A stretch of DNA of 40,744 nucleotides. Source: a virus. Made by a program: the position numbers and the translations under genes. The notes under the pieces are model-generated. The model was not told the origin of the DNA. It was given only the letters and a program-made list of their open reading frames with translations, and searched no databases. The stretch covers positions 1 to 40,744 of the IMG/VR virus record IMGVR_UViG_3300025769_000277. One strand, 5' to 3'. Every line of letters begins with the position of its first letter. Position 1 is the stretch's first letter. Below are positions 2,324-40,744 of this stretch, piece by piece.

Positions 2324-2528
2324 TGAGGTAAAAGCAACCCGTTTTATGTGGGTAAAAAACATAAAAGAAAATGAATTCTTTTATGGGAATAATGGATACA
2401 AAAAGGCCTGTGGGAACTGTAGGGGTCTTGTGCCTGTCAACACTAAGGATGATGATATATGTGCAAAGTGCAGTACAAAAATAACAATAATAGCAGTGAG
2501 GTTGATAAATGACATACATAATAGCTGA
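2310..2528 (+). CDS. Small zinc-ribbon protein
   Basis: A 72-residue protein with two Cys pairs, C-G-N-C at about residues 34-37 and C-A-K-C at about 54-57, separated by a turn. This is the layout of a zinc ribbon. It starts with two adjacent ATGs (2310 and 2313). AGGAG lies further upstream than usual, so translation is probably coupled to the preceding gene. The C-terminus overlaps neuB by 20 bases. Zinc ribbons of this size in phages often bind nucleic acid or RNA polymerase, but nothing here fixes the partner. Confidence 0.6.
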   Translation: MMTVDEVKATRFMWVKNIKENEFFYGNNGYKKACGNCRGLVPVNTKDDDICAKCSTKITIIAVRLINDIHNS

Positions 2529-3531
2529 GTTAGGGCAAAACCATAATGGGGATATTGATACCGCATATAACATGATAGAGAAGGCCTCAAAGAGTCAGGT
2601 TAACGCAATCAAGCTAACCATGAGAGATCTTGATAATGAGATGACGGATGATATGGCTAATTCACCTTATAATTCACCAAATAGCTACGGAAAAACATAC
2701 ATGGATCATAGAAAGAAATTAGAGTTAGATCCGGTAGATATAAACAACTTATGTATTAGGGCGAAAGATTTAGGGGTGGATGTAGTTATTACATTATGTT
2801 CATCAACGCTTTTAAACAAAAGAATAATAAGAGAGCACATAATACCAAAATGCGAATATATTAAGATTGCATCGAGAGACATAACCAACATACCTTTATT
2901 AGAAGGGATAAAGCCTCTGGATAAAAAAATAATAATATCTACAGGTATGTGTGATTTTTTCGAGTTAACAGAGGCTCTTAAGATACTATATAAGAAAGAC
3001 GTAACAATAATGCACTGTGTGTCTAAATACCCAACAGAAGATAGTGATGCTAGATTAATTCGTATAAACACACTAAAGAATCAATATGGAATACGATATA
3101 GAATAGGTTACTCGGACCACACGATGGGGATAGATGCGGTTAAAATTGCGGTTTGTATGGGGGCAACAGTAATAGAGAAGCACATGACATTAGACCCTGA
3201 AGATAAGGGGTCAGATCACAAAGGATCTTTGACACCAGTCAAATTTAGATACATGAGGAGACAGGTGAATTATATTCAAGAAATGATAGGATTAGATCAT
3301 TCATTATCGGCTATAGATGGTGACGGGATTAAGGGGTCAAGAATTAAATTAATGCGGTCAATATGTGCTAATAGAAATATAAGAAAAGGGGAGGTTTTTA
3401 CGGAAGATAATTTGTGTCTATTAAGCCCTGGGGACGGTATACCTGGTAATTACTATCGCAATTTAATAGGCAAGACTTGCAATTCAGATATAAATGCTAA
3501 GACAGCTATAAAAATGGAGAATATAAAATGA
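2509..3531 (+). CDS. neuB: NeuB-like nonulosonic (sialic) acid synthase
   Basis: Family members condense phosphoenolpyruvate with a hexosamine or mannose (or its 6-phosphate) to give a nine-carbon sialic-type acid. The 340 residues match the usual length. The N-terminal TIM barrel begins with the family motif AELGQNHNGD, continues with KIASRDI, a STGM strand and HCVSKYPT, and includes GYSDHTMG and EKHMTLDP. The C-terminal part from about residue 280 (RSICANRNIRKGEVFT onward) is the antifreeze-like SAF domain. The Glu, His and Asp positions expected for PEP and metal binding appear present. It overlaps the zinc-ribbon gene upstream and is coupled by ATGA to a HAD phosphatase, followed by a NeuA-like gene. 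This suggests a 9-phosphate route of the Neu5Ac-9-P or Kdn type. The exact sugar cannot be told. Confidence 0.88.
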   Translation: MTYIIAELGQNHNGDIDTAYNMIEKASKSQVNAIKLTMRDLDNEMTDDMANSPYNSPNSYGKTYMDHRKKLELDPVDINNLCIRAKDLGVDVVITLCSSTLLNKRIIREHIIPKCEYIKIASRDITNIPLLEGIKPLDKKIIISTGMCDFFELTEALKILYKKDVTIMHCVSKYPTEDSDARLIRINTLKNQYGIRYRIGYSDHTMGIDAVKIAVCMGATVIEKHMTLDPEDKGSDHKGSLTPVKFRYMRRQVNYIQEMIGLDHSLSAIDGDGIKGSRIKLMRSICANRNIRKGEVFTEDNLCLLSPGDGIPGNYYRNLIGKTCNSDINAKTAIKMENIK

Positions 3532-3830
3532 AGACATACTGTTTTGACATGGACGGGGTCATATGTGAGATAGACCATGATGATTATCAATTTAGAAGTC
3601 CTATAAGAAATACAATTTTAATTATGGCCCAACTAAAAAAAACAGGGAATATAGTAATTATTCACACAGGAAGACATATAAACAACCTTAGCATTACTAA
3701 AAGTTGGTTAAGTAGGAATAAGGTTAAATACGATCTTATTCAGTTCGGGAAGCCAGTGGCAGACTTATACATTGATGATAAAGGCGTGAGGTTTGAAGAA
3801 TGGAACGAGAAATTAATAAAATACTTGTAA
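3528..3830 (+). CDS. HAD-superfamily phosphatase
   Basis: A short 100-residue HAD protein with motif I DMDGV (Asp7 nucleophile, Asp9 acid), a motif II threonine in IHTGR at about residues 45-49, a Lys in motif III (FGKP), and motif IV DLYIDDKG at about 79-86. No large cap domain fits in this length, as in the KdsC or capsule-type small phosphatases. Its place between NeuB-like and NeuA-like genes makes a sugar-acid 9-phosphate phosphatase the best guess. That substrate is inferred from context only. Start by ATGA overlap with neuB. Confidence 0.75.
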   Translation: MKTYCFDMDGVICEIDHDDYQFRSPIRNTILIMAQLKKTGNIVIIHTGRHINNLSITKSWLSRNKVKYDLIQFGKPVADLYIDDKGVRFEEWNEKLIKYL

Positions 3831-4318
3831 TAATTTGCGCTAAAAAAAACTCTAAAAGATTCCCAAGTAAAAATGAGATTCTTATGGATGATGTAATAAA
3901 AGAGTGCCTAAGAGATAAGAGGATATCTAGAGTTGCGTTAGCAACGGACATCGAGCGGTTCCTCGAAATGGGTGATGATAAGCTAAGTGTTTTAATGCGA
4001 CCTAAGAATGCATTAGAGCCAGAGGATTCAGTTTTTCTTATAGCAAGATGGGTATACCTATCTATGGGGGACCACTACGATATAGTGTCTGTAGTACTAC
4101 CGTCTGTTATAGGGTTTAAATCTGGGTTTATAAAAAAGACCGCTGACATATTGGTATCAAATAATCTAAATGAAGTACGAACATACAATAATGAGGGGGT
4201 TGAAAACGGTGTAATAACAATGAGGAGTGAGTGTCTAAAGAGCAGTAATGTATCAACTTACTGTGGTGCACTTATAACAAAAGCACATGAAGTCCATCTA
4301 CCTAGTGAGCTAAGATAA
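3800..4318 (+). CDS. neuA: Truncated-looking CMP-sialic acid synthetase (NeuA-like)
   Basis: CMP-nonulosonate synthetases activate the sugar acid with CTP. The N-terminus has the nucleotide-binding motif in the form ICAKKNSKRFPSKN, corresponding to the family pattern of small residues, Arg/Lys, Gly/Asn-Ser-Lys-Arg and Lys-Asn. A strand with ALATDIERF and a later Ser/Pro loop follow. At 172 residues it is about 50 shorter than typical NeuA, and the usual QPTSP-like loop reads LPSVIGF. It may be a minimal or divergent enzyme. It overlaps the HAD gene by 31 bases and shares TAATG with the primase gene. Confidence 0.65.
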   Translation: MEREINKILVIICAKKNSKRFPSKNEILMDDVIKECLRDKRISRVALATDIERFLEMGDDKLSVLMRPKNALEPEDSVFLIARWVYLSMGDHYDIVSVVLPSVIGFKSGFIKKTADILVSNNLNEVRTYNNEGVENGVITMRSECLKSSNVSTYCGALITKAHEVHLPSELR

Positions 4319-7257
4319 TGAATATAATAGATGAGATAAATAAAAGACTCACTATAAGTGAGGTATTAAGCTATCTCCCAGAGATGAAAGAAAATGGGCA
4401 TAACTATATAGGGAAATGCCCTGTGGGGCATAGTAGCAAGTCTGGGACTAGCTTTCAGGTAAACACAATAGAGCCGACATTTAATTGCTTTAACTGCGGT
4501 GTATCCGGTAATTATATACATCTAATAGAGCTAATAAAATTTGGGTCATGCTCAAGAGGTAAAAAAGCATCAGAGTCATTTAAAGGGGCTATAAAATACC
4601 TTGCAAATAAATATGAGATAAATCAACAGGACTCATCATATGAGGGAGGTGTTTACTCGCCTGTATTTGATATAATCGAATATGCGGTATCCGAATATCA
4701 GTCACAGTTAAAAAAAACAAATATGGCTGAGTCTATATGTAAAAAATATGGATTCAATAAAGAATTTTTAGAGACTGAAAGATGGGGGTATGGTGCGGTA
4801 TGTCCTTCGGTGAATATGCGGGAATACTGGACTCAAGAGGAGCTTTTGTCATCAGGGTTATTTAATAAATCAGAAAAATCAAAGACGGGAGTATTCCATA
4901 TATACCAAGGGAGATTAGTCATCCCATATAATGACTACGGTGTGGTAAAGTACACCATAGGTAGAAAGACATCAAAAACAAATAATTGGGGCAATGGAGT
5001 AGAGTCCCCAAAGTATTTTAAGCAATACTTAAACTCTGAGAAAAGACCATGGGTATCAAAATCAATAAAAAACCAGATAATTAAGTGCAGCAAAGACAAT
5101 GATGAAGTTGTCATAACGGAAGGGGTTACAGATTATTTATCAGCAAAGATGCATGGGATCAATTCCGTATCTGCGGTCACGACATCATTCAAAAGAGATG
5201 AGTATGGAAGAGTCGTTGAATTTTGTAAGAATTTTAAACGGGTTTATATCGCTAATGATAACGATGAAAATCAGGCTGGCCAGAAGGGTACTGATAGAAT
5301 TTGTGAAATGTTGTTACATGCTGGCATTAACCCTTTTGTTATACTATTGCCTAGGGGCCCTGGAGTATCTAAAATAGATTTAAATGAATTTATAAAAGAT
5401 AAAGGTGTCGAGGCTTTCCATGAATTAAAGTTAGAATCAGAATCTTATATAGATCACTTAATTAATAAAATACCACCTGATACTGACAAGAAAGATCTCG
5501 TTTTAAAACTAGAACCGATATGCAACCTCCTTTCAAGTATGCCGAAACATATTGCTGAGGTTTACGTTTTAGATAAGATAAAGCAACGATTCAAGTTATC
5601 ATCATTTAAAAATATACTTAGGTCTATACAAGACTTGGTCTTTTCAAGTCAAACTGAGGTGTTCAAAGATAAGGATACAGAGGATGATAAGTCGTCTATA
5701 TTTAAAGATCATGAAAATGATATAAAGCTAATAAGCTCAGGGCAAGATTATAAGGAGGGGTTTCTTTATTACACAATAACAAGACCTAAGACCGTTACTG
5801 ATAAAAATGGAATAATGAAGGTTGTTAATGAAGTTTTAATGGTTTGCTCGAATGGAGATATCTCGGTAGTAAAAGATTACCAGATTATTAAAGAAAACTT
5901 CGCGCTACAGAGGAAATTAGGCCCTGAGTATAGGTGTGAGTACTGGTCTTTTAAGGATGGCCCATACTCGGTAAATAAGTACGTAAATGGCAAGGCCATG
6001 GTAGATCCAAGAGATTTATACGAGAAACTTCTTAAATTTATAAATAGATTTGTTTATTTTAAAAAAAATTACGATGCTTCATTCTGTGCAGTATTATTAA
6101 TGGTGACATCGTTATTTATGGTTTTCAATGCAGTCGGCTATGTCCACCTTCTAGCTGAAAAAAGGTCTGGCAAAACGACACTTTTAGAGATATTTCATCT
6201 CTTAGGTTTTAACTCGCAACTTGCGTCATCAATATCTGATGCAGCCCTTTTTAGGAGTGTTGAGGCGTTCCGCTGCATGCTTCTTATAGATGAAGCTGAA
6301 AATCTTAACCCAACTCAAAAGCAAAGAGAGGTAGGGCAGTCAGAAAAATTAGAACTTTTGAAGGCTGGGTACAAAAAGAGCGGTTCGGCAACAAGGTGTG
6401 AGGGACAATCGAACTCGGTTGTTACGTTTCATAACTACTGTATGAAAATATTTGCTGGAACAAAAGGCGCCGACTCCATACTTGAAGATAGGATGATTTT
6501 ATTAGAGATGATTAGAGCCATGGAGGGCGTTGAGATAGAGGAGCTTATAGAGGCTAACGTGAAAGATGAATCTCAGGAGCTTAGAGATATGATCTATTGC
6601 TTTGGGATGCAGTACGCGAAGGATGTTGACGATATCTACAGAACATCATTATCTAATAAGCGCGAAGAGTTAAAAAAGAGTAAGGTTACATTTAGGCAGA
6701 AAGAGTTGTGGACCCCATACCTATGTGTAGCAAAGCTAATAGATGATAAGTCACATGTAAATGAGAGTGTTTTTAATATTATGCTTGAAAAGGCAAGGGA
6801 TGGAGTAGATACAAGAGAGGCGTTTGGCGGGGATACTAAATCATTAGAGATAGTAGAGAGGTTATATCTTTGGATTAAAAGAGTTCAGGATGGAAAAATA
6901 AAAGATATGAGCTTCCTATATGATGGCGATGTATATATACGTAGAGGAATAAGCGATCACTTCATTAAAGACGTCTTAAAGAGTAAAGAGAATGAAGATG
7001 ATTTTAGTTATATGACATACCAGAAGCTTAAGCAATTATTGAGGAAGTTTCATATAATAGATAAAGACTCGGATCTAAAAAACCATAATACAGGGGGCTC
7101 AAAAGGGTCTGCGATAATATTAGATAGATGCAGAATGCTAAAGGCAATAATGACATATAAAAACAATTTTGACGAAGAGGTTCTAGAGGATATAAATAAG
7201 ATGAATAATATAAAAACAGAAGTAGAGTATGACTTTAATGAAGAGGGGCTAGATTAA
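4318..7257 (+). CDS. Primase-ATPase (zinc finger, TOPRIM, P-loop helicase-like)
   Basis: A 979-residue replication protein. Residues 34-60 form a CHC2-type zinc finger (Cys34, His38, Cys57, Cys60). A TOPRIM primase core follows, with EGVTD (Glu268, Asp272) and the metal motif DND (Asp314, Asp316). A central linker of about 150 residues precedes a P-loop domain with Walker A AEKRSGKTT (Lys619) and Walker B LLIDEAEN (Asp658, Glu659). The ATPase resembles DUF927/VapE-type or SF3-like helicase domains more than DnaB or T7 gp4. It would prime DNA and unwind or load at forks. It is the largest gene in the window, and no DNA polymerase accompanies it, so the host polymerase is presumably recruited. 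Confidence 0.88.
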   Translation: MNIIDEINKRLTISEVLSYLPEMKENGHNYIGKCPVGHSSKSGTSFQVNTIEPTFNCFNCGVSGNYIHLIELIKFGSCSRGKKASESFKGAIKYLANKYEINQQDSSYEGGVYSPVFDIIEYAVSEYQSQLKKTNMAESICKKYGFNKEFLETERWGYGAVCPSVNMREYWTQEELLSSGLFNKSEKSKTGVFHIYQGRLVIPYNDYGVVKYTIGRKTSKTNNWGNGVESPKYFKQYLNSEKRPWVSKSIKNQIIKCSKDNDEVVITEGVTDYLSAKMHGINSVSAVTTSFKRDEYGRVVEFCKNFKRVYIANDNDENQAGQKGTDRICEMLLHAGINPFVILLPRGPGVSKIDLNEFIKDKGVEAFHELKLESESYIDHLINKIPPDTDKKDLVLKLEPICNLLSSMPKHIAEVYVLDKIKQRFKLSSFKNILRSIQDLVFSSQTEVFKDKDTEDDKSSIFKDHENDIKLISSGQDYKEGFLYYTITRPKTVTDKNGIMKVVNEVLMVCSNGDISVVKDYQIIKENFALQRKLGPEYRCEYWSFKDGPYSVNKYVNGKAMVDPRDLYEKLLKFINRFVYFKKNYDASFCAVLLMVTSLFMVFNAVGYVHLLAEKRSGKTTLLEIFHLLGFNSQLASSISDAALFRSVEAFRCMLLIDEAENLNPTQKQREVGQSEKLELLKAGYKKSGSATRCEGQSNSVVTFHNYCMKIFAGTKGADSILEDRMILLEMIRAMEGVEIEELIEANVKDESQELRDMIYCFGMQYAKDVDDIYRTSLSNKREELKKSKVTFRQKELWTPYLCVAKLIDDKSHVNESVFNIMLEKARDGVDTREAFGGDTKSLEIVERLYLWIKRVQDGKIKDMSFLYDGDVYIRRGISDHFIKDVLKSKENEDDFSYMTYQKLKQLLRKFHIIDKDSDLKNHNTGGSKGSAIILDRCRMLKAIMTYKNNFDEEVLEDINKMNNIKTEVEYDFNEEGLD

Positions 7258-8051: not shown

Positions 8052-8330
8052 ATGCAGATAAAAAACGAGAAGGATGCGTCTATATTAATGGAAGCTTTAG
8101 ACATAACATCCAATAATAGAATGACTCAGTACGGGGATCCTAAGCACAACTTCCAGGATATAGCTGATCTATGGTCAGGATATCTAGGTGTAGATGTGTC
8201 TAAGAAGGATGTGTCTTTAATGATGGTTTTATTTAAAGTAGCAAGAGAGAAGGCTGCTCATAAAAGAGACAATTTAGTAGATATGGCAGGGTATGCTAGA
8301 ACTGCTGCTATGATAGAGGGTTTGGAATGA
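8052..8330 (+). CDS. DUF6378-like phage protein
   Basis: A 92-residue protein chosen to start at ATG 8052, which has GAGGAG seven bases upstream. The longer frame from 7974 would run through the hairpin and gives an unlikely sequence. The pattern R-M-x-QYGDP-x-HNF-x-DIADLW, then DV-x-MMVLFKVARE and HKRDNLVDMAGYA, matches what I recall as DUF6378, common in tailed phages. That HNF and DNLVDMAGY arrangement is reminiscent of all-alpha NTP pyrophosphohydrolases of the MazG type, so a nucleotide-pool role is possible but not shown. The stop overlaps the next start by ATGA. Confidence 0.7.
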   Translation: MQIKNEKDASILMEALDITSNNRMTQYGDPKHNFQDIADLWSGYLGVDVSKKDVSLMMVLFKVAREKAAHKRDNLVDMAGYARTAAMIEGLE

Positions 8331-9340
8331 GGATATTAATAACTGGTGCAGCCGGATTCATAGGGCATCATTTACTAGAATACATTTACCTGAATACTGA
8401 TTGGGATATAGTATGTCTTGATAGACTAGACTATAGTGGAAATCTAAATAGAATTTCAGATCTAAATATGGATTCTGTAAAAAACTCAAAACGATTATCA
8501 ATCGTACATCATGACTTAAAGTCGGCAGTAAACCCTATGATATCAAAAATGATTGGAGATGTTGACTATATCGCGCACCTTGCAGCAGGGTCTCATGTAG
8601 ATAGATCAATTGATTACCCTATGGATTTTGTTCTTGATAATACAGTAGGTACAGTAAATATCATGGATTATGCAAGAAAACTTAAATCATTAAAGAAGTT
8701 TATATATTTTTCTACGGACGAAATATTTGGTCCAGCACCACAGGGTTTATCGTATAAAGAGTATGATAGATATAACTCGACAAACCCTTATAGCGCATCA
8801 AAAGCTGCTGCTGAGGAGCTTGTAGTAGCCTATCACAACACATACGGACTACCAGCTATAATTACACATACTATGAATGTATTTGGAGAGCGTCAGCATC
8901 CAGAAAAATTCATACCAATGTGCATTAAGAAGGTTAGGGATGGTCAGAAAGTAACAATACACTCGGATGAGTCAATGAAAAAGGCTGGTTCTAGGCATTA
9001 TATACATGCAAAAGATGTCGCATCTGCACTTTTGCATCTTATAAATTACGATACAGTTAACATGCCCATACACGATAGCGGTGTAAAATGTCAGAAATTC
9101 AATATTGTGGGGTCAAAGGAAATAGATAATCTTGAGCTTGCAAAGACAATAGCTTTAAACGTTGGTAAAGAATTAATATATGAGATGGTGGACTTCCACT
9201 CATCAAGACCAGGGCACGACTTGAGGTATGCATTAGATGGTTCTAGAATGAAGTCTATAGGGTGGGAGCCAGGAAACGTCATGGATAATCTTTGTAATAC
9301 CGTATACTGGTCATTAAGGAATGATAGATGGTTATTATAA
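8327..9340 (+). CDS. RmlB-like NAD-dependent sugar dehydratase/epimerase
   Basis: A 337-residue extended short-chain dehydrogenase. It has the Rossmann motif GAAGFIG (7-13), STDEIFG at 129-135 with the RmlB-type Thr-Asp-Glu triad, the catalytic Y155-x3-K159, NVFGERQHPEKFIP, and RPGHDLRYALD near residues 288-298. These fit dTDP-glucose 4,6-dehydratase and close relatives, which oxidise and dehydrate a nucleotide sugar. No RmlA, RmlC or RmlD partner is present, so it must draw on or redirect host nucleotide sugars. It is probably linked to the NeuB/NeuA genes and the glycosyltransferases at 23421-26054. The substrate is inferred only at family level. Confidence 0.87.
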   Translation: MRILITGAAGFIGHHLLEYIYLNTDWDIVCLDRLDYSGNLNRISDLNMDSVKNSKRLSIVHHDLKSAVNPMISKMIGDVDYIAHLAAGSHVDRSIDYPMDFVLDNTVGTVNIMDYARKLKSLKKFIYFSTDEIFGPAPQGLSYKEYDRYNSTNPYSASKAAAEELVVAYHNTYGLPAIITHTMNVFGERQHPEKFIPMCIKKVRDGQKVTIHSDESMKKAGSRHYIHAKDVASALLHLINYDTVNMPIHDSGVKCQKFNIVGSKEIDNLELAKTIALNVGKELIYEMVDFHSSRPGHDLRYALDGSRMKSIGWEPGNVMDNLCNTVYWSLRNDRWLL

Positions 9341-11802: not shown

Positions 11803-13238
11803 TATTCAATTATCGCCTTTCTTTTTCTACCTGTGGCATCCTCAATCTCAACCACTGCGCCTTTTCTAAGCCCAGAACGCTCAGCTTCCTCTACACTTTT
11901 AAATGTACCTTCTGGTGGTTTTTGACTCGCTTCAAAATCAGATATAGCTTTCTCAGCTACCTCAGAGTTTTTCACAATCTTTCTTACGCTACCAGGTATA
12001 GCAAGTTCAGATTCTAACCCAAACCTCTTAGCGGTAGCATCTGCAGTCTTAACATTCTCCCTTAAAGATCTACTCCCACTAATAAATGTCTTATTAGCTA
12101 CATTTAATATACCAGCTCTTTGCTGCGGGCTTAATGTCTCACCTTTAAATATATTATTTACCTTAACACCAAGGGATTCTAATAATCCTAATGAGTTATT
12201 AGCTAATTTAATCTCACCCTCTCTGACAACAGACTCAGGGTCTAGCATTTTAATAAGAGAATACACCAATCCAATATCATTTATGTTCTGGAAAGATTTT
12301 TTAGTCACGATTGCCTTGCCTGTACCAGTTAATTCACCGAAATTATCATCCAGCCTAAGAGTTGATTTAGATTTATCTAGACTAGAAAAATCACGCACAT
12401 TATTAAACCATTGATTAAGCGTGTCAGCAGTTTTCGATTGAGTAATTAGGTCGTTTTTAATCTCACGTATAGCCGTAAACCTTTGCCTCTCATCTAAACT
12501 ACCTGACTTTAAACCTTCAGAAAGAGATTTTATTCTCATTAGTTTTTCCCTATCCTTTAAGGCTAGGGACTCAGTGGCAGATTTAGCTATATCTTCTTGC
12601 TTAGATAGTAACCCCTCCCCTGCTCCTGATCCAAAAGTTGACACCCCCGTCTTTCTAGCTGCCTTAGCTCGATTTATGGCTGTTTGTTGTAAGGCGCCAA
12701 CAATAGTGTTTGTTGGTTTAGTTACAGATAAGCTCATATATTTATTAGGGTTATCAATACCTACTGATTTTAGTTTTTTAAGCGAAGCCTCTGGCAACTG
12801 AGTTCCAACAGGTAATCTAGATAACTGCCTTGTTAAAGTAGCTCTTTTTTGAGATTTATCAGCTAAAGATCTATACTGCTCTAATGTTAAGTTAGGTACT
12901 ATATTTTTTACATTATTATAAGTTGACTCAGACTGAGCTTCCTCTGGAGGTAGTTCACCAATTTTATCCATTAATGTAATCATTTTAGAAGAAGCTTCTT
13001 TTACTTTTGTGGCTTTTTGCTGGGACTTCATTAGATCATCCTGCCCCTTAATGACAGACTCTAATGCTATCTCTGATCTAGTTTTTGCGCCACCAGCCCT
13101 AGATTTTGCTGCTGCTTTATTATTAGATATAGGTTTTCTCTTACCTGTTTTAGATGATCTTGGCGCTGGTATATTATTGGATGGCATATCACTAATTTCA
13201 GTATCCAACTCTGCAAATTGTGCGAATCCTAACGACAT
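11802..13238 (-). CDS. Putative internal virion protein (478 aa)
   Basis: A 478-residue basic, helix-rich protein. It has a low-complexity N-terminal region (about 20-60) rich in Lys, Ser and Ala, and an extended alpha-helical centre. Near the C-terminus is a SVEEAERSGLRKGAVVEI segment that resembles a small beta domain found at the end of phage virion proteins. No enzyme motif was recognised. It overlaps the upstream gene by 10 bases and the downstream gene by one. It is likely part of the ejection complex with its neighbours. Confidence 0.5.
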   Translation of the reverse strand: MSLGFAQFAELDTEISDMPSNNIPAPRSSKTGKRKPISNNKAAAKSRAGGAKTRSEIALESVIKGQDDLMKSQQKATKVKEASSKMITLMDKIGELPPEEAQSESTYNNVKNIVPNLTLEQYRSLADKSQKRATLTRQLSRLPVGTQLPEASLKKLKSVGIDNPNKYMSLSVTKPTNTIVGALQQTAINRAKAARKTGVSTFGSGAGEGLLSKQEDIAKSATESLALKDREKLMRIKSLSEGLKSGSLDERQRFTAIREIKNDLITQSKTADTLNQWFNNVRDFSSLDKSKSTLRLDDNFGELTGTGKAIVTKKSFQNINDIGLVYSLIKMLDPESVVREGEIKLANNSLGLLESLGVKVNNIFKGETLSPQQRAGILNVANKTFISGSRSLRENVKTADATAKRFGLESELAIPGSVRKIVKNSEVAEKAISDFEASQKPPEGTFKSVEEAERSGLRKGAVVEIEDATGRKRKAIIE

Positions 13239-15031
13239 TTAGAGACTCCTTTTATTGTTTTTCTATATACACTCATTATACTATTTGTTTCGAAAAATGT
13301 ATTTAAGCTATCGCACTTATGTTTATTTATAAAATATGCGGATATCGAAATTACACGCATAAACTGCATAGCCAGAAATCCAAATATGCTAAACTTTTTC
13401 TTCCCCATAATAAATTGCATATGATTTAACCAAGGTCTAGTTATTAATTTATAGGTTACATACCCTATGTTTTTATTTAAAACAAGAAAGTCCTGAATAG
13501 GGTTTGTTAATATCACGTATCCTGACCAGAATTTATCTGCCCCTCTTTCATGCTTTTGAAAACGAATTCTAAACCTAGGAAAATCTAAGAACTCATCTTT
13601 TGTAATAAATGAAGATCTATATGCTGCTGTCGATAGATTACAACCATAGCTGGTTATTGAATCTATTGGGTCAACAACATCTAGCAGCGTGCCTCCGGCA
13701 AAGCTTATAGCGCCTGTTACATCTTTTACCAAATCCAGAGCCTCTTCACCAAGGTCACCTAAGGCCTCAAGGGCAATATCCGTAGGTTTGAACGCAAAAT
13801 CAACTATTTGGCTTACTTGTTTGTCAGCTAAAACTCTTACTAGTGAGCCACTACCAGGCATAAAACTATTTAATGATTGGTAAACAAACTCCTTAGCTGC
13901 AGCATTTCTGGCGTCTTTAACATTCCCTCCATTAATTAATGTCCCTATGCCTACTATTAATTCAGCCCCATATTCATTAGCAATTTGCTTTGTTGCATCA
14001 TTAACAAGTTTATCAGATACACTGTCTCCAAACTGCTCTTTAAGCTCTTTCTCTACCGTTTTTTTAATCTTTTTTTCTACAGATTTTTGAGCTAACTCTT
14101 TAGCTTTATCTACACCTTTATTTTCAATATAATCAACGGGGTCTTTAGCGAAGTCAATTAACTCCTTTATATCTTCAGTCCCAATATCACTATATTGACT
14201 TAATGCCGAATTTAACTTATCTTCTCCATGCTTCTCTAAAGCCCCTGCAGGATCAAGATAAAAATCGTTAAGATCCTTTAACTTAATACCTTCGGCATCC
14301 GTCCCTTTAGTTACATTAGACCATTCAGATTCAAGCCTATCGCTGACATCTATTGCCCCCCCCCCATAGGTACCTATTTGACCGAAACTTCCGTCATCTT
14401 GCTCGATAGATATCCCATTTGTTAAATCTCCACCAATACCAGTAGATAATTGAACTTTCCCATCATTTGAAGATGGGAAATCAATATCAGGTAAGTTAAT
14501 CCTAGGTAAGTCTATATCTGGAGCCTGTATATCTGGAGCTTCTATATCTGGAGCTTCTATATCTGGAGCCTGTATATCTGGAGCCTGTATATCGGGAGCT
14601 TGTATATCGGGAGCCTGTATATCGGGAGCCTGTATATCTGGAGCTTGTATATCGGGAGCCTGTATATCTGGAGCTTGTATATCTGGAGCTTCTATATCTG
14701 GAGCCTGTATATCTGGAGCTTCTATATCTGGAGCCTGTATATCGGGAGATTGTATATCTGGAGCCTGTATATCGGGAGATTGTATATCTGGAGCCTGTAT
14801 ATCGGGAGATTGTATATCTGGAGATTGTATATCTGGAGATGATAGACCAGAGAATGGATTAAATAATTTAAAACCAGACCTACCAATCCCCGTATCACTT
14901 TGTTTTAATGGGGTAGATAATGATCCACTAATACCTGATTTAGAGGTAATATCAAATAATATATCCTTTTCTCCACCTTCATCTATATCTGATATCTCGT
15001 CTCTAAATAAACTATCTGCTAATGATGGCAT
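13229..15031 (-). CDS. Virion protein with 22 tandem PDIQA pentapeptides
   Basis: A 600-residue protein with distinct regions. Residues 1-64 are acidic. About 65-174 form 22 perfect-length five-residue units of the type A/S-P-D-I-Q/E, closed by two degenerate units (LPRIN, LPDID). Residues about 190-450 are acidic and helical (KDPVDYIENKGVDKAKELA and similar). The C-terminal 140 residues are aromatic and basic, with FPRFRIRFQKHERGADKFW and hydrophobic stretches near 535-560, possibly membrane-active. Pro at every fifth position suggests an extended rod. It lies in the candidate ejection block. The repeats resemble pentapeptide-repeat A(D/N)Lxx units with Pro in place of Ala, but the fold is not established. 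Confidence 0.6.
   Translation of the reverse strand: MPSLADSLFRDEISDIDEGGEKDILFDITSKSGISGSLSTPLKQSDTGIGRSGFKLFNPFSGLSSPDIQSPDIQSPDIQAPDIQSPDIQAPDIQSPDIQAPDIEAPDIQAPDIEAPDIQAPDIQAPDIQAPDIQAPDIQAPDIQAPDIQAPDIQAPDIEAPDIEAPDIQAPDIDLPRINLPDIDFPSSNDGKVQLSTGIGGDLTNGISIEQDDGSFGQIGTYGGGAIDVSDRLESEWSNVTKGTDAEGIKLKDLNDFYLDPAGALEKHGEDKLNSALSQYSDIGTEDIKELIDFAKDPVDYIENKGVDKAKELAQKSVEKKIKKTVEKELKEQFGDSVSDKLVNDATKQIANEYGAELIVGIGTLINGGNVKDARNAAAKEFVYQSLNSFMPGSGSLVRVLADKQVSQIVDFAFKPTDIALEALGDLGEEALDLVKDVTGAISFAGGTLLDVVDPIDSITSYGCNLSTAAYRSSFITKDEFLDFPRFRIRFQKHERGADKFWSGYVILTNPIQDFLVLNKNIGYVTYKLITRPWLNHMQFIMGKKKFSIFGFLAMQFMRVISISAYFINKHKCDSLNTFFETNSIMSVYRKTIKGVSKCR
14510..14839 (-). repeat. 15-bp coding tandem repeat (22 units)
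   Basis: On the minus strand a 15-base unit (typically CAGGCTCCAGATATA in register) occurs 22 times over 330 bp, with no out-of-register indel. Changes are few: GCT, GCC or TCT for the first residue, CAA/CAG or GAA for Gln or Glu, and ATA GAT with little drift. Such homogeneity indicates recent expansion by slippage or unequal recombination. Confidence 0.95.
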
Positions 15032-23420: not shown

Positions 23421-24647
23421 TCATATTGTAGATAAATGCTTAACCTTTGCATTAAGCGCATTCATATATAAATCATACCACTTATACGCATGATTCTGGA
23501 TAGAGAAATTTAAATCAACATGTTTTTTTGCATCTGATCCTAATTTAAATCTATAAATAGGGTCATCTATAAGTTTGCATATGTGATTAAACCAGTCATT
23601 TACACTATAAGCCAAAAGCCCTGTCTTCCCATCCTCTATATGTTGAACGTATGGTTTACACCCAGAAACTACGGATGGTATTGCGTAGTGTGAATACTCA
23701 AGCCATTTTATATTAGATTTTGAGTTATTGAAACGATTAATCTCTGGATCTATTAATGGGACTATCCCTATATCAATAAGGTCTTCTGAAAATACTTTAT
23801 TAAATTTTTCTGGATCTATCCACTCTATATGTTCACCATTTATTTCTTTATACATATTAACAAAAGCTGCTCCATAAAATCTAAATTTGACATTATCCTT
23901 GTACTTTTCCTTAATCATTTTTAATGCCGGCATAATCATTTTTAAATCGTGATGATGACTATCACCACCTTGCCACCCTATTAATACATGGTCACGCCTC
24001 TTCTTTTTACCAGGGTAGTTCATTTCATCTGGGTTAATAAAATTAGGTAAAATAGAAACGTTTTCGTTCCACTTATTAAATGTTAATCCGAGATCTGGGG
24101 TTGTACAGGTTATGACATCTGAATATATGAGAGCTCTAAACATCTTCGCCATTCTTGCCTTATTTCTTAAAATATTAAATCGAAAAGCGTCTTTTTCAGA
24201 ATCGCTTGCATCATTATACTCCCCAAGTGGATCACACAATTCCCCATCTTTCCAAGCATAATTACCATCAGATAACTGAATATTCTTTATTCCGGCATAC
24301 CTGTAATAACTGTTAGATGGATGGACACATGTAAAATCATCATCAAATTCTGACACAAATAATTTAGGTAATTTATTCTGTATTGCAAAATCATTAAATC
24401 TAACTAAAATATCAGAAGGGTTTGTATAATGAAATATAATAACATCTGCCCACTCTACGGCATCTGACATGTACTTACCTATATTCCTCTTAAATTCAGG
24501 GTTTGACCAATCTAAACCTCGCGTTTCAACTAACCCTCTCTTCTCTAGCTCAGCTAAAGGCCACTTCAATCTGTAGTAGTAACAAAAACCTTTATTTTTG
24601 GATATTATACATACTCTTAACTTCCAACCTTTTTGTTTTTTAATCAT
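23421..24647 (-). CDS. Glycosyltransferase (GT-B, GT4/GT1-like)
   Basis: 408 residues. Typical GT-B features are NVSILPNFINPDE at about residue 200, GWQGGDSHHHDLKMIMPALK at about 223-243, and a C-terminal donor-site segment NSKSNIKWLEYSHYAIPSVVS at about 307-327 with HIEDGKTGLLA after it. The layout matches retaining GT4-type enzymes that use nucleotide sugars. No signal peptide. Coupled by ATGA to the methyltransferase. With two neighbours it forms a sugar-modification cassette placed between capsid and adaptor genes. The acceptor (virion protein, DNA or host glycan) is unknown. Confidence 0.82.
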   Translation of the reverse strand: MIKKQKGWKLRVCIISKNKGFCYYYRLKWPLAELEKRGLVETRGLDWSNPEFKRNIGKYMSDAVEWADVIIFHYTNPSDILVRFNDFAIQNKLPKLFVSEFDDDFTCVHPSNSYYRYAGIKNIQLSDGNYAWKDGELCDPLGEYNDASDSEKDAFRFNILRNKARMAKMFRALIYSDVITCTTPDLGLTFNKWNENVSILPNFINPDEMNYPGKKKRRDHVLIGWQGGDSHHHDLKMIMPALKMIKEKYKDNVKFRFYGAAFVNMYKEINGEHIEWIDPEKFNKVFSEDLIDIGIVPLIDPEINRFNNSKSNIKWLEYSHYAIPSVVSGCKPYVQHIEDGKTGLLAYSVNDWFNHICKLIDDPIYRFKLGSDAKKHVDLNFSIQNHAYKWYDLYMNALNAKVKHLSTI

Positions 24648-25345
24648 ATAGATACTCCAAGTATGTGAAATAGATGTTCGTAAGAATGGAAGTGTTTATC
24701 TTTAACAAACCTCCTAAGTTCTTTTTTTACTTTACTCCCCACCAGCAATATCCCAAGACCATGACCGTGAGAGAAATTCGCCGATGGATACTGTGTTGAT
24801 ATTTCATTCCATAATCTCCAGACTCCAAAATCCTCTTTCATCTCAGTTGTATCGTGAAATATAATTACACCATTATCAGACATCTTTGGTAACCATGTTT
24901 CAAAATCATGTTTGACAGCCTCATATGTATGAAGCCCATCTATATGCAACAAATCCACATTGTTAGTTTCAGATAATTTATTTGCTTTATCAAATGTCAT
25001 CCGCAATAAATATGCAAACTCCCTATAATGAGAATGCGCTGCCACAACAGTCTTATATATATCATCATCATAGTGACCCGCATGCTTATCTCCTTCCCAT
25101 GTATCCACTGCATAACACTGCGTGTCTATATCAAGTTCTTTAGCTGCTTGGCAAAAAGCAAAAAATGAAGAACCTAAAAAAGATCCTAGCTCAACAACTT
25201 TCTTAGGCTTCATAACTGCCATTAAAAAAAATGCAAACGGTATATGTTGTGTCCAGGCAGACAACGGGGTCCATCTAGGATGCATAAATATTACCGATCT
25301 ATACTTTTTAGCTAATGGTAAGTCTAAAGATTTAAGAAAATCCAT
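24644..25345 (-). CDS. SAM-dependent methyltransferase (Methyltransf_24 / TylF-like)
   Basis: 233 residues with Rossmann motif I VVELGSFLGSS at about 51-61, AVDTWEGD at about 79-86, and LLHIDGLHTYEAVKHD followed by GVIIFHDTTE. The conserved Asp and His of the last two motifs are those that bind metal in TylF and cephalosporin-hydroxylase-type O-methyltransferases. Such enzymes often methylate sugars, which fits the glycosyltransferase neighbours. It overlaps genes on both sides. Confidence 0.82.
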   Translation of the reverse strand: MDFLKSLDLPLAKKYRSVIFMHPRWTPLSAWTQHIPFAFFLMAVMKPKKVVELGSFLGSSFFAFCQAAKELDIDTQCYAVDTWEGDKHAGHYDDDIYKTVVAAHSHYREFAYLLRMTFDKANKLSETNNVDLLHIDGLHTYEAVKHDFETWLPKMSDNGVIIFHDTTEMKEDFGVWRLWNEISTQYPSANFSHGHGLGILLVGSKVKKELRRFVKDKHFHSYEHLFHILGVSI

Positions 25346-26054
25346 CCAGTATCTCCTTTATGACCTTTAAAATACGAGCGCATGACTGTCCATCTGTTAA
25401 TACCTCTATATTATCGTAATCACGAGGCATATTTTGATTGCCCCTGCCTATCACCTTAATCCCGTGTGATTCGGCAACTATATCGAATGTCGACATCAGG
25501 TCCGAATAGACAACTTTTGCGTTTTCATATAAAAACTGACATTTTTTAAAATGTTCACGACCCATATTGTAAAATCTATTACTCATTATTGGATTTAAGT
25601 GATCGTACAAATCCCTTTGAGTATCATCAACAATAGATGTAATGTATCCATCACAATCATAATCTTCGCATATTTTTTCTAACTCCAATTTAGTCAGAGG
25701 TTCTTGATTCCATTCCACAGGTAAACTATGATGCTCCATTCTACAATGCTGAGGCGCATATACAAGTTTAGATGGATTTCTACGACGAGGAATTGTCATG
25801 TCCGTATAAATACTACCTACATGATAAGCCATTAAGCCGTTTTTTTTTAAGTTATCATACGTCCAATTATTATTACAAAGATAATGTACATCATCATGGA
25901 ATTGCCTCTTAGATAGAACATGATTATCAGGGATGCCGTGCTCAATCCAAATTTTTGGTCCTGGTAATTCTGGGATGCCAAAATCTAATGTCCAAAAAAT
26001 ATTGCATCTTAGAGCTACTTCTGAAGGTATCCAATCAATGCATGGGTGACTCAT
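25332..26054 (-). CDS. GT-B-like protein, possible glycosyl or glycerophosphate transferase
   Basis: 240 residues with an IWIEHGIPD segment at about 35-43, VHYLCNNNWT, a LVYAPQHCRM strand around 93-102, and VVYSDLMSTFDIVAESHGIKVIG at about 180-202. These match the C-terminal donor half of GT-B enzymes, such as CDP-glycerol transferases and related polymerases. The N-terminal half is short, so the protein may be a minimal or partial GT-B. It is coupled to its neighbours (ATGA upstream, 14-base overlap downstream). Assignment is moderate. Confidence 0.5.
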   Translation of the reverse strand: MSHPCIDWIPSEVALRCNIFWTLDFGIPELPGPKIWIEHGIPDNHVLSKRQFHDDVHYLCNNNWTYDNLKKNGLMAYHVGSIYTDMTIPRRRNPSKLVYAPQHCRMEHHSLPVEWNQEPLTKLELEKICEDYDCDGYITSIVDDTQRDLYDHLNPIMSNRFYNMGREHFKKCQFLYENAKVVYSDLMSTFDIVAESHGIKVIGRGNQNMPRDYDNIEVLTDGQSCARILKVIKEILDGFS

Positions 26055-36920: not shown

Positions 36921-37139
36921 TTGAAAAATAAAAAATTAGATACAAATAAAATAGTACACCTGTCATTCACCCAGGAAGACCATGAGAAGTTGAAAGAAAA
37001 GGCTAAGTCGTATGATATGCCTATGGCTACATATTCAAAGATGGTTGTATTAGAGAATATAAACCAGGAGCCTGTTATTCAGGAGGTTGAGGAAGATGTG
37101 TATTTCCGAAAGCCAAGAACTGTTAAGCGACAAAGATGA
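36921..37139 (+). CDS. Ribbon-helix-helix-like small protein (72 aa)
   Basis: TTG start at 36921 with GGGAG upstream. 72 residues. The segment KIVHLSFTQEDHEKLKEKAK followed by SYDMPMATYSKMVVLENI has a ribbon-helix-helix pattern. The tail is acidic, then basic (VEEDVYFRKPRTVKRQR). ATGA overlap with the helicase gene suggests coupled expression. It is the third such small protein in the genome. Confidence 0.55.
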   Translation: MKNKKLDTNKIVHLSFTQEDHEKLKEKAKSYDMPMATYSKMVVLENINQEPVIQEVEEDVYFRKPRTVKRQR

Positions 37140-38725
37140 AACTTAGAAGTAAAGATAGCAAGATTTTCTTAGACTGCCCTTATGAGAGACGGGACATACC
37201 AGCTTCTCTAAAGGGCAGATGGAATAGAAGATATAAATCTTGGATGTTTGAGCCGTCTATAGTGGTGTATAACCAGATACTAGAGACGGTGAAGGATGAG
37301 GGGATTGATATAGAGGTGTGCCCCAAAGTTTCAGAGTATTTCGCAAATAAAAATCGAGCAATAAAAAACTTCAAGTTAAACAAAGAGTTCAAAACTAAGC
37401 AGTTTAAACATCAAGAGCATATAACTGCCCTTATAGTTAAAAGACAGAAATGCTTTATATTCGCTGGAGTAGGAACAGGGAAGAGCAAGGCAGCTATTGA
37501 CGCAGCTACCTTGCTATGGGACATGGGACGAGTAAAGAAGGTCTTAATTGTATCACCTGCATCTATAATGTGGAACTTTGCGAACGAGATAAAGGTACAC
37601 TCAGACTTTGATAGCACTATAATTTATGGGTCTATCACAAAAAGAAAAGATCTAATAAGCAACTCAACAACACTTTTTGATATTGTTAATTATGAGGTAC
37701 TAGGGAAGTTGAGTCAGGATATCTTAAAAAAAGGATATGATATGGTAGTTTTTGACGAGGTTCACTATTGTAAAAGTAGAACGTCAAATAGATCTAAGGA
37801 TGCATATAATGCAACGCAAGGGATAAACATCAAGGTTGGTTTAACCGGAACAATAATAAGTAATAATTATGAAGATTTATTCATGCCGTATAAGGTAGTA
37901 GACCAGTCAATATTCGGGCCTCACTTTACAAGGTTTAAGGAGAGGTACATCATAACTGAGCCAATGTTTAACCAGGTTATAGGGTATAAGAAACAAAATG
38001 AGCTCAAGAGGTTGGTGGCTAGTAACTCTATAAAATTTGACATAAGGGACGTAATAGATAACCTCCCAGATGAGCAGGTTATAATTAAAGATATAGTATT
38101 AAGTAATAAATCCAAGAAGCTTTACAGCCAGATGAAAGACGAGATGATTGTTGGGGTAGATAGTGGTCAGGTCGTTGCTCAAAATGTACTAGAGAGATTA
38201 CTTAGGTTATCTCAAATAACTTCAGGGTATTTAGTGGATAAGGATAGCGATACGGTTGAGTATGTAGGGACTGAGAAGCTGGATGTTTTAAAAGAAACTT
38301 TGAGTCAGATAACAGATAAGGTTTTGATATTTTGCAGATTCACAAGGAGTATAGATAGGGTCGCAGAGCTTTGTGAAAAGATGAATCTTGGTTACCATAT
38401 TTATGATGGAAGAACTAAGGATAAGGAAGTTTATCTGAAGTTTAATAATGATGATTCACGTGTATTTATTGCGCAGATACAAAAATCAGAGGGATACAGC
38501 CTACCTAACGCTAGGTATTGTATATTTTATGAGTTAGATTACTCTAGAAAAAATCACATCCAGAGTAAAGGCCGGATATTGAGGGCTACCGGAAGTAAGC
38601 ACGATTGTATTTTTTACATTTACTTACTTGCTAAAAATACAGTTGATAAGGCGATTTATGGGTCGTTGAAGAAGAAAGATTTTACAAGTAGAGAAGCATT
38701 GGCGTTTGTCAAGGGAGCAGAATAA
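37136..38725 (+). CDS. SF2 DNA helicase/translocase (SNF2-like)
   Basis: 529 residues. The first 85 are a small HARP-like domain (CPYERRDIPASLKGRW, RRYKSWMFEP). Helicase motifs follow: a Q-like HQEH (92-95), Walker A GVGTGKS (111-117), LIVSPASIMWNF (137-148), DEVH (207-210), GLTGTII (about 235-241), then the second RecA domain with LIFCRFTRS, YDGRTKD, QIQKSEGYSLPNA and motif VI QSKGRILRATGS. These identify an SNF2-type translocase, which remodels forks or protein-DNA complexes. The N-terminal domain recalls SMARCAL1-type annealing helicases. Likely part of the replication/recombination module. Confidence 0.9.
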   Translation: MKLRSKDSKIFLDCPYERRDIPASLKGRWNRRYKSWMFEPSIVVYNQILETVKDEGIDIEVCPKVSEYFANKNRAIKNFKLNKEFKTKQFKHQEHITALIVKRQKCFIFAGVGTGKSKAAIDAATLLWDMGRVKKVLIVSPASIMWNFANEIKVHSDFDSTIIYGSITKRKDLISNSTTLFDIVNYEVLGKLSQDILKKGYDMVVFDEVHYCKSRTSNRSKDAYNATQGINIKVGLTGTIISNNYEDLFMPYKVVDQSIFGPHFTRFKERYIITEPMFNQVIGYKKQNELKRLVASNSIKFDIRDVIDNLPDEQVIIKDIVLSNKSKKLYSQMKDEMIVGVDSGQVVAQNVLERLLRLSQITSGYLVDKDSDTVEYVGTEKLDVLKETLSQITDKVLIFCRFTRSIDRVAELCEKMNLGYHIYDGRTKDKEVYLKFNNDDSRVFIAQIQKSEGYSLPNARYCIFYELDYSRKNHIQSKGRILRATGSKHDCIFYIYLLAKNTVDKAIYGSLKKKDFTSREALAFVKGAE

Positions 38726-39069: not shown

Positions 39070-39261
39070 ATGAGAGTACAACTATCAGATAAGTACCATT
39101 TCGAGAGATGCCCATTTTGTGGCAATGATGACAATTTTTCTATATTAGAAGGTGACTACGGTACATCACAGGTAGAGTGTGCAGACTGTAATGCCAGGGG
39201 GCCAGAGGAGGTTGATGATTATCACGGTTTAATTATACAAGCATGGAACGAAAGAGGTTGA
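39070..39261 (+). CDS. Lar-like restriction-alleviation zinc protein
   Basis: 63 residues. Zinc Cys pairs C14-x2-C17 and C37-x2-C40, the motif CPFCGND, then VECADC-x-ARGPEEV and the C-terminal IIQAWNERG are the Lar family pattern. Rac-prophage Lar relieves type I restriction by modulating modification, though many phage homologues are untested. It has GAGGAG upstream. The TGGAACGAAAGAGGTTGA at its end is repeated at the ends of the two following array genes, so the three form a unit that has been duplicated or recombined together. Confidence 0.8.
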   Translation: MRVQLSDKYHFERCPFCGNDDNFSILEGDYGTSQVECADCNARGPEEVDDYHGLIIQAWNERG

Positions 39262-39264
39262 AAA

Positions 39265-39918
39265 ATGAAGTACAAATTGACAGAAGATACAAGAGAGTTA
39301 GAGCCAGGGGTTATTGTATACAGAATAGAAGCTTTGAAAGATTTTAAAACTATTGGAGGAGATGTGAAAAAAGGAGATAAGGGAGGCTGGATTGCTTCTG
39401 AAGAAAACCTATCACAGTTAGGGGCATGCTGGCTTTTTGATGAGTCTGTTGGTTATGAGAACTCAAGACGCAGTGAGGATTCAATCGCTAAAGGTAACAG
39501 TAAGCAATACGGTAATAGCAGGCAATCCGGTAATAGCCAGCAATTCGGAGATAGCCAGCAATACGATAATAGCCAGCAATTCGGTTATAGCTGGCAATAC
39601 GGGAATAGCAGACAATATGGTTATAGCAGGCAACACGGTTATAGCGAGCAGTTCGGTAACAGCAAGCAATCCGGTAACAGCAAGCAATCCGGTAACAGCA
39701 AGCAATCCGGTAACAGCAAGCAATCCGGTAACAGCAAGCAATCCGGTAACAGTAAGCAATCCGGTTATAGTAGGCAATACGGAGATAGCAGGCAATCCGG
39801 AGATAGCAAGCAATTCGGGGATAGCAGACAATTCGGTTATAGCTGGCAATTCAGTGATAGCAAGCAATCTGGTGATATCAGGTTATTGAACAAATTAAAA
39901 TGGAACGAGAGAGGTTGA
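39265..39918 (+). CDS. Hexapeptide-array protein, short copy (217 aa)
   Basis: 217 residues. Residues 1-76 are a compact domain (MKYKLTEDTRELEPGVIVYR, then EALKDFKTIGGDVKKGDKGG, a W and ENLSQLG). Residues 77-202 are 21 hexapeptides G-N/D-S-x-Q-Y/S/F, then GDIRLLNKLKWNERG. In relatives I recall, this N-terminal domain leads into repeats of the G-N-A-x-V-Y type, predicted as a left-handed beta helix. Here Ala is Ser and the Val position is Gln throughout. Six consecutive units read GNSKQS. The N-terminus is nearly identical to that of the next gene, so they are recent duplicates. Function unknown; an assembled fibre or solenoid is likely. Confidence 0.8.
   Translation: MKYKLTEDTRELEPGVIVYRIEALKDFKTIGGDVKKGDKGGWIASEENLSQLGACWLFDESVGYENSRRSEDSIAKGNSKQYGNSRQSGNSQQFGDSQQYDNSQQFGYSWQYGNSRQYGYSRQHGYSEQFGNSKQSGNSKQSGNSKQSGNSKQSGNSKQSGNSKQSGYSRQYGDSRQSGDSKQFGDSRQFGYSWQFSDSKQSGDIRLLNKLKWNERG
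39493..39870 (+). repeat. 18-bp tandem array of the short copy (21 units)
   Basis: 378 bp, exactly 21 units. Five consecutive units starting near 39655 are base-identical (GGTAACAGCAAGCAATCC), and the sixth differs by one base, showing very recent amplification. Confidence 0.95.
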
Positions 39919-39921
39919 GAA

Positions 39922-40744
39922 ATGAAATACAAATTGACAGAAGAGACAAGAGAGTTAGAGCAAGGGGTTATCGTTTATAGAATAGAAGCTTTGAAAGATT
40001 TTAAAACTATTGCAGGAGATGTGAAAAAAGGAGATAAGGGAGGCTGGGTTGCTTCTGAAGAAAACCTATCACAGTTAGGGTCATGCTGGCTTTTTGATGA
40101 GTCTGTTGGTTATGAGAATTCAAGACGCAGTGGGGATTCAATCGCTAAAGGTAGCAGCAGGCAATACGGGAACAGCAGGCAATTAGGGGATAGCTGGCAA
40201 TTCGGTAATAGCAAGCAATACGGTAATAGCAAGCAATCCGGTAATAGCAGGCAATCCGGTAATAGCAGGCAATGCGGTAATAGTAGTCAATCCGGTAATA
40301 GCCAGCAATCCGGTGATAGCATGCAATCCGGTAACAGCAGGCAATCCGGTGATAGCAAGCAATACGATAATAGTTGGCAATACGATAATAGCCAGCAATC
40401 CGGTAACAGCCATCAATACGGTGATAGCGAGCAATACGGTAATAGCAAGCAATACGAGAATAGCGAGCAATTCGGGAATAGCAAGCAATACGGTAACAGC
40501 CAGCAATACGGTGATAGCAGACAATACGGTACAAGCAGGCAATACGGTAACAGCAGGCAATACGGGAATAGCTGGCAATACGGTAATAGCCAGCAATACG
40601 GGGATAGCGAGCAATTCGGTAATAGCTGGCAATACGGTAATAGCAAGCAATACGAGAATAGCGAGCAATACGATAATAGCCAGCAATCCGGTAACAGCCA
40701 TCAATACGGTGATAGCGAGCAATACGGTAATAGCAAGCAATACG
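39922..40744 (+). CDS. Hexapeptide-array protein, long copy, N-terminal part (continues at base 3)
   Basis: Starts at ATG 39922 after GAGAGAGGTTGAGAA. Residues 1-76 differ from the short copy at only about eight positions (for example E8, Q14, A31, V42, S53). The hexapeptide array begins at 40150 (residue 77) and is open to the contig end. Through the 87-base overlap it continues in frame at bases 3-770, giving 501 residues in total. Variable positions in the hexad are Lys, Arg, Gln, Glu, Trp or His before the Gln, and Tyr, Ser, Phe or Cys after it. Arrays of this kind may form beta-solenoids or condensate-like assemblies. The role is unknown. Confidence 0.8.
   Translation, partial: MKYKLTEETRELEQGVIVYRIEALKDFKTIAGDVKKGDKGGWVASEENLSQLGSCWLFDESVGYENSRRSGDSIAKGSSRQYGNSRQLGDSWQFGNSKQYGNSKQSGNSRQSGNSRQCGNSSQSGNSQQSGDSMQSGNSRQSGDSKQYDNSWQYDNSQQSGNSHQYGDSEQYGNSKQYENSEQFGNSKQYGNSQQYGDSRQYGTSRQYGNSRQYGNSWQYGNSQQYGDSEQFGNSWQYGNSKQYENSEQYDNSQQSGNSHQYGDSEQYGNSKQY
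40150..40744 (+). repeat. 18-bp tandem array, left-hand part of the 68-unit array
   Basis: Begins at GGT 40150 and runs to the contig end; with 1-716 it makes 68 exact units. A block of roughly 100 bases starting near 40378 recurs near 40666, a spacing of 288 bp (16 units), showing higher-order duplication. This block contains the sequence used to close the circle. Confidence 0.92.
40658..40744. repeat. Direct terminal repeat, right copy
   Basis: Identical over all 87 bases to 1-87. The true circle length would be 40,657 bp. Confidence 0.9.

Follow-up and report, generated by a model that had tools for sequence, protein, structure and literature searches.

Tandem phage genes encode members of a rare Ser/Gln subfamily of a widespread head-hexapeptide protein family, with a probable new core chemistry

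The window analysed in this work is the whole stretch of 40,744 nucleotides of the IMG/VR virus record IMGVR_UViG_3300025769_000277. It contains two tandem paralogous genes that encode proteins of 217 and 501 residues, as described in an earlier sequence-only reading. The features of the locus are given below by position, strand and content.

4318-7257, same + strand block as the hexad genes: primase-type protein
37136-38725, same + strand block: helicase-like ORF
39070-39261, + strand: Lar-like zinc protein of the restriction alleviation family, immediately upstream of gene 1; PF14354 at E 3.9e-8, above the cut-off, and phrog_599 at E 2e-8
39251-39257, + strand: ribosome-binding site of gene 1, AAAGAGG, 7 nt before the ATG, read from the sequence
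39265-39918, + strand: gene 1, 217 aa
39265-39438, + strand: gene 1 head domain, residues 1-58, YdcK/phrog_5070-like by profile and PDB matches
39439-39492, + strand: gene 1 adaptor, three hexads DESVGY ENSRRS EDSIAK, with core residues G, R69 and A, the Arg being present in 10/10 Q-type and 0/120 V-type proteins
39493-39870, + strand: gene 1 array, 21 G-N/D-S-x-Q-Y/S/F hexads in 18-bp units, S 21/21 and Q 21/21
39871-39918, + strand: gene 1 C-terminal tail GDIRLLNKLKWNERG and stop, the 3' end of which resembles the end of the Lar-like gene upstream (25/27 bp)
39907-39914, + strand: ribosome-binding site of gene 2, GAGAGAGG, read from the sequence
39922 to the contig end, resuming at 88-770, + strand: gene 2, 501 aa with the terminal repeat counted once
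39922-40095, + strand: gene 2 head domain, residues 1-58, phrog_5070 at E 4.5e-43, nearly identical to that of gene 1
40096-40149, + strand: gene 2 adaptor, DESVGY ENSRRS GDSIAK, with core residues G, R and A, from the adaptor comparison
40150-40744, + strand: gene 2 array, first part; both parts together hold 67 S-x-Q hexads and GDRKQS
88-716, + strand: second part of the gene 2 array, beyond the circular junction with its 87-bp terminal repeat; unbroken in L004-L006
717-770, + strand: gene 2 C-terminal tail and stop

The contig is circular, with an exact terminal repeat of 87 bp (1-87 = 40658-40744). Gene 2 crosses the contig ends as was first read, but it resumes at 88-770 instead of 1-770, positions 1-87 being the terminal repeat. 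The hexad register of gene 2 is perfect when the repeat is counted once, and is broken when the ends are joined untrimmed. Both genes are unbroken in three other IMG/VR contigs (L004, L005 and L006), with 100% identity through the junction, and for 3.0 kb upstream and 3.2 kb downstream of the start of gene 1 these contigs do not differ from the circularised window. They measure 39.8, 41.7 and 39.5 kb respectively, and the array lies in their interior, so that their ends fall elsewhere than those of the window. The region gives no match to known phages in a DNA search.

The S-x-Q hexads, 21 in gene 1 and 67 in gene 2, are all spaced by exactly six residues. The count of 21 hexads and the exact 18-bp register of the sequence-only reading are thus reproduced, but the 68th hexad counted for gene 2 is the last unit, GDRKQS. 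Residues 1-76 of the two proteins are identical at 70 of 76 positions, as expected for the shared 76-residue head previously assigned, but this region is really a head of 58 residues followed by three adaptor hexads that are already in the repeat register. The product of gene 2 contains 25% Gln plus Asn (123/501), 18% Ser, 13% Gly and 10% Tyr. His occurs once and three times in the two proteins, and their arrays are uninterrupted.

The head of gene 1 matches the profiles phrog_5070 (E 7.5e-39) and phrog_7964 (E 1.5e-33), and the relatives with the same type of array match this family at E 1e-27 to 1e-44. It also matches NCBIfam NF040481 (YdcK) at E 3e-11, and the solved YdcK chains 2f9c and 2pig (2f9c at E 7e-5 by sequence and 4.7e-9 by profile). 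YdcK, which we take to be a left-handed beta-helix protein, has a head homologous to that of the hexad proteins, but only the N-terminal part matches, and the scores of 42.8 and 44.7 bits are far below the curated NF040481 cut-off of 350. Pfam gives no match of any kind at E < 1 for the hexad proteins. Relatives of the head are common: a Q-type head query matches 152 annotated phage records at E <= 0.01. Among the members that were translated, twelve from annotated phages and one from a plasmid, none has a Ser/Gln array, and the regular hexad arrays, where present in these members, are of the Ala/Val kind. These results of profile and sequence comparison indicate that the two genes are members of a widespread phage head-hexapeptide family and form part of a rare Ser/Gln subfamily.

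To compare the two kinds of array, termed Q-type (Ser/Gln) and V-type (Ala/Val), loci were gathered with head queries, and the 80 top-ranking loci of each scan were compared. The Q-type set consists of nine arrays: those of the two window genes, L041 and L042 (Bacteroidota bins), L124, L125, L126, L127 and L139. L128, L029, L030, L033, L038, L039 and L040 are the same contigs as these or near-copies, and L036 contains an array end only. In the V-type set (105 arrays, 1,366 units), one core position is occupied by Val or Ile in 93% of the units and the other by Ala in 81%, as anticipated in the sequence-only reading, which gave GNAxVY-like repeats as usual for relatives of this head. Gln occurs at the Val position in 1 of these 1,366 units. 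In the Q-type set, Ser and Gln occupy the Ala and Val positions of the relatives in 286 of 286 register units, so that the proposed replacement of Ala by Ser and of Val by Gln is borne out. This pattern is not due to chance, because it holds without exception across nine arrays from divergent loci. No mixed array is found among the sampled loci (best 80 per scan). The six-residue period of the left-handed beta-helix hexapeptide repeat is kept without slips in the Q-type arrays, with no indel in any of the 286 units. The aliphatic residue at position i of [LIV]-[GAED]-x2-[STAV]-x is absent, and Gln is located there in every Q-type unit.

A phage-encoded Gln/Asn-laddered solenoid or condensate-forming protein would be new, according to the sequence-only reading. 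The Ser/Gln array is rare, but the window is not the only place where it occurs: it is also carried by seven further viral contigs and by two Bacteroidota bins. Relaxed S-x-Q DNA scans of viral contigs, which do not amount to a census, give mostly low-complexity chance repeats among the matches listed. Among 395 genomes from the same phylum as G004, the pattern scanned for occurs only in the genome already known, and none of the papers searched shows these repeats in print.

The proteins of the phrog_5070/phrog_7964 family, which have V-type GNAxVY arrays and are of unknown function, share the head and the hexad register with the Q-type proteins. The two kinds differ in the core pair, which is mostly Ala with Val or Ile in the former and all-or-none Ser/Gln in the latter, and in the adaptor. 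A three-hexad adaptor with the core residues G/M/N, Arg and G/A stands before the Gln ladder in all ten Q-type proteins compared. The Arg residue at its second unit is present in 10 of 10 Q-type proteins and in 0 of 120 V-type proteins at the same unit. An additional unit with Ser is present in L139. One turn of a three-sided left-handed helix comprises three hexads, and this correspondence favours, without proving, such a geometry. The profile of the V-type C-terminal tail (GCFxG...) matches the tail of L127 at E 1.8e-6, with no hit to reversed sequences, and phrog_20532 matches the same tail at E 2.7e-8. A C-terminal tail is thus common to the family and at least one Q-type member, and a Q array can therefore occupy the same head-array-tail frame as a V array. 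The C-terminal end of L042 is similar by eye, and is under the threshold in the tail profile search.

Structure prediction, which had been proposed as a check, was carried out with AlphaFold2 in two runs for two Q-type proteins (gene 2 and L124), using Q-type alignments of 9 sequences. The result is a regular pattern in which most hexads consist of a strand of four residues and a turn of two, but at low confidence and with no significant fold match. The pLDDT value is about 47-58 over most of the L124 array, and for gene 2 it is 64-77 only at residues 361-460 and under 40 over most of the rest. Foldseek finds no match at E <= 0.001 for either model; the top match is YdcK in both, with an E value of about 0.04 (at least 0.039) and a TM score of 0.14-0.28, which is not significant. 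The predicted strand pattern agrees with a solenoid but does not establish one. Three-unit periodicity of the surface residues gives no signal in the Q-type arrays, and the V-type controls lack it too.

The proteins probably consist of a YdcK-like head and a hexapeptide solenoid, in which the core has been switched wholesale from Ala/Val to Ser/Gln. From their homology to the V-type repeats, the Ser and Gln residues are inferred to face inward. The chain would fold as a three-sided left-handed beta-helix, or at least as a beta-solenoid, and the side-chain amide of each Gln residue would bond to those of the Gln residues above and below it to form ladders along the rod. The coil with the Arg residue, flanked by mostly small residues, may serve as the link between the ordinary head and the polar core. 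The side-chain volumes of Ala, Ser, Val and Gln are 89, 89, 140 and 144 cubic angstrom respectively. The swap would therefore be nearly volume-neutral, and the coil would not need to change, because the side-chain volume is nearly kept. The swap would be needed in every unit, probably because a single Val residue would break a ladder. There is about an even chance that these proteins are soluble natural beta-solenoids with a core of Gln/Ser hydrogen-bond ladders, up to 68 repeats and a coil with one buried Arg to the head. In that case they would be natural counterparts, encoded in a genome, of the polyglutamine beta-helix, and would derive from an ordinary Ala/Val core by an all-or-none switch. 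Beta-helices of Gln-rich chains have reportedly been modelled for polyglutamine disease proteins; these models concern disease peptides, whereas the Q-type proteins form a gene family found in nature, in which a head and a regular G-N turn are present.

It is unlikely that the arrays form instead a two-layer beta-arcade like that of curli, in which each rung would comprise two hexads and the molecules would join at their ends as functional amyloid fibres with CsgA-like Gln ladders. CsgA, the curli beta-solenoid, has ladders of Gln, Asn or Ser stacked inside (PMC10192328), as proposed for the Q-type arrays; a two-hexad (36-bp) periodicity is visible in L126, and the predicted strand-turn pattern fits such an arcade as well. 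However, CsgA is secreted, has a longer N...Q-x-G repeat with a hydrophobic centre instead of a hexad period, and is without the Q-type head. The lack of any Pfam match at E < 1 extends to the curlin repeats, the adaptor has the length of one turn of a three-sided helix, and the head comes from a family with a solved globular relative, YdcK.

A disordered, prion-like low-complexity chain that separates into condensates, as was also suggested in the sequence-only reading, is less likely still. The Q/N-rich composition of gene 2 (123/501) fits this proposal, and many prion-like domains have been reported in phages by a composition-based survey (PMC5694896). However, Ser and Gln are never substituted while most other positions vary, the period is exactly six without an indel in 286 units, the adaptor with its invariant Arg is kept, and strands rather than coil are predicted. 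The condensate proposal is not supported, and the S/Q invariance, the exact period and the conservation of the adaptor point instead to an ordered solenoid whose core consists of Ser and Gln.

An unconstrained recent expansion of one founder repeat, or an assembly artefact at the contig ends, is very improbable. Some units of the window are identical, with six copies of GNSKQS in gene 1, and the ends of the contig lie inside the array. However, three other contigs read through the array identically, and the other loci keep Ser and Gln with DNA units that are all different, so that this explanation is rejected by identical independent contigs and divergent arrays, and is refuted for the family. 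Most units differ in DNA, and all 27 units are distinct in each of L042 and L127. The Ser and Gln codons have zero entropy at their first two bases in every Q-type array, and their third base varies in seven of nine arrays, as do most other positions of the unit. Ser is encoded by TCT throughout L139 and by AGY in the other Q-type loci, and Gln by CAA or CAG, depending on the locus. Judged from these codons, selection acts on the protein, because synonymous changes and a different Ser codon occur while Ser and Gln are invariant; neither a DNA-level role nor fresh copying of a single unit can explain the pattern. Within-array counts of one-step substitutions by frame are too few to decide. The least credible proposal is that the +1 frame, reached by frameshifting or an internal start, encodes the true product, because its near-classical left-handed beta-helix pattern V-I-A-S/G-N-T, seen as V/I-A-x-N-T/S in most window units and open for long stretches (39437-39889; 40313-40744 with 1-735), is lost in other Q-type loci (E-T-V-S-N-L in L124, A-T-L-G-N-L in L139), the S/Q codon variation sits on frame-0 third positions, the head, ribosome-binding site and stop all agree with frame 0, and a stop codon at 40184 interrupts this frame in gene 2; the proposal is rejected by the cross-locus comparison.

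For the proposed Ser/Gln solenoid, the genomic context bears on its role. The terminase, portal and tail-like genes are located within 9937-33526 on the - strand, and the hexad genes in the + strand replication block. Given this separation from the structural genes, a tail or virion role, raised earlier as an alternative, is unlikely. Some V-type relatives adjoin primase/helicase, HNH endonuclease, RNA ligase or deoxyribonucleotidase genes, so that several of the examined phrog_5070/phrog_7964 members are also located among replication or nucleotide-metabolism genes. An acyltransferase role also seems unlikely, because the arrays are uninterrupted and contain almost no His, whereas LbH acyltransferases have a catalytic His and loop insertions in the helix. 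The best guess is an intracellular, non-enzymatic rod or scaffold, which would be made together with the replication genes, and the Tyr, Phe, Ser and variable x residues on its surface may provide a binding or scaffold face. The structural block of the window also encodes a 600-aa protein (13229-15031, - strand) in which a Q/E-A/S-P-D-I pentapeptide, unrelated to the hexads, is repeated about two dozen times. Sugar-related genes are present as well: genes for a NeuB-family synthase and an NDP-sugar dehydratase/epimerase are located in the early block (2509-4318 and 8327-9340), and a glycosyltransferase-like gene and a methyltransferase gene among the structural genes (23421-26054).

A tree of the head (55 columns) is poorly resolved, and monophyly of the Q-types is not rejected (p-AU 0.458). 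The use of TCT for Ser in L139 is a hint of separate seeding or recoding. Some Q-type genes terminate in a duplicate of the 3' end, ribosome-binding site and start region of an unrelated upstream neighbour. Such flanking copies are located at 3862-4000 and 4605-4731 in L041 (111/139 bp), at 2908-2999 and 3629-3720 in L124 (77/92 bp), and at 39243-39269 and 39900-39926 in the window (25/27 bp). From their position, these direct repeats look as if a gene had been inserted at a gene end. The V-type genes L148, L133, L182 and L141 are also located beside copies with common 3' ends, and a V-type paralogue is clearly present directly upstream in L148 and L133.

The phage family itself is already known; what is new is a subfamily with a probable new core chemistry, clearly marked out within a very common, uncharacterised phage protein family. 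If the proposed fold holds, the core of a beta-solenoid would have been recoded from hydrophobic to hydrogen-bonded with its frame kept. The same head and repeat could then be compared with both cores, which would provide a direct test of the part that side-chain ladders play in the stability of beta-helices, and the family would bear on how Gln-ladder folds remain soluble.
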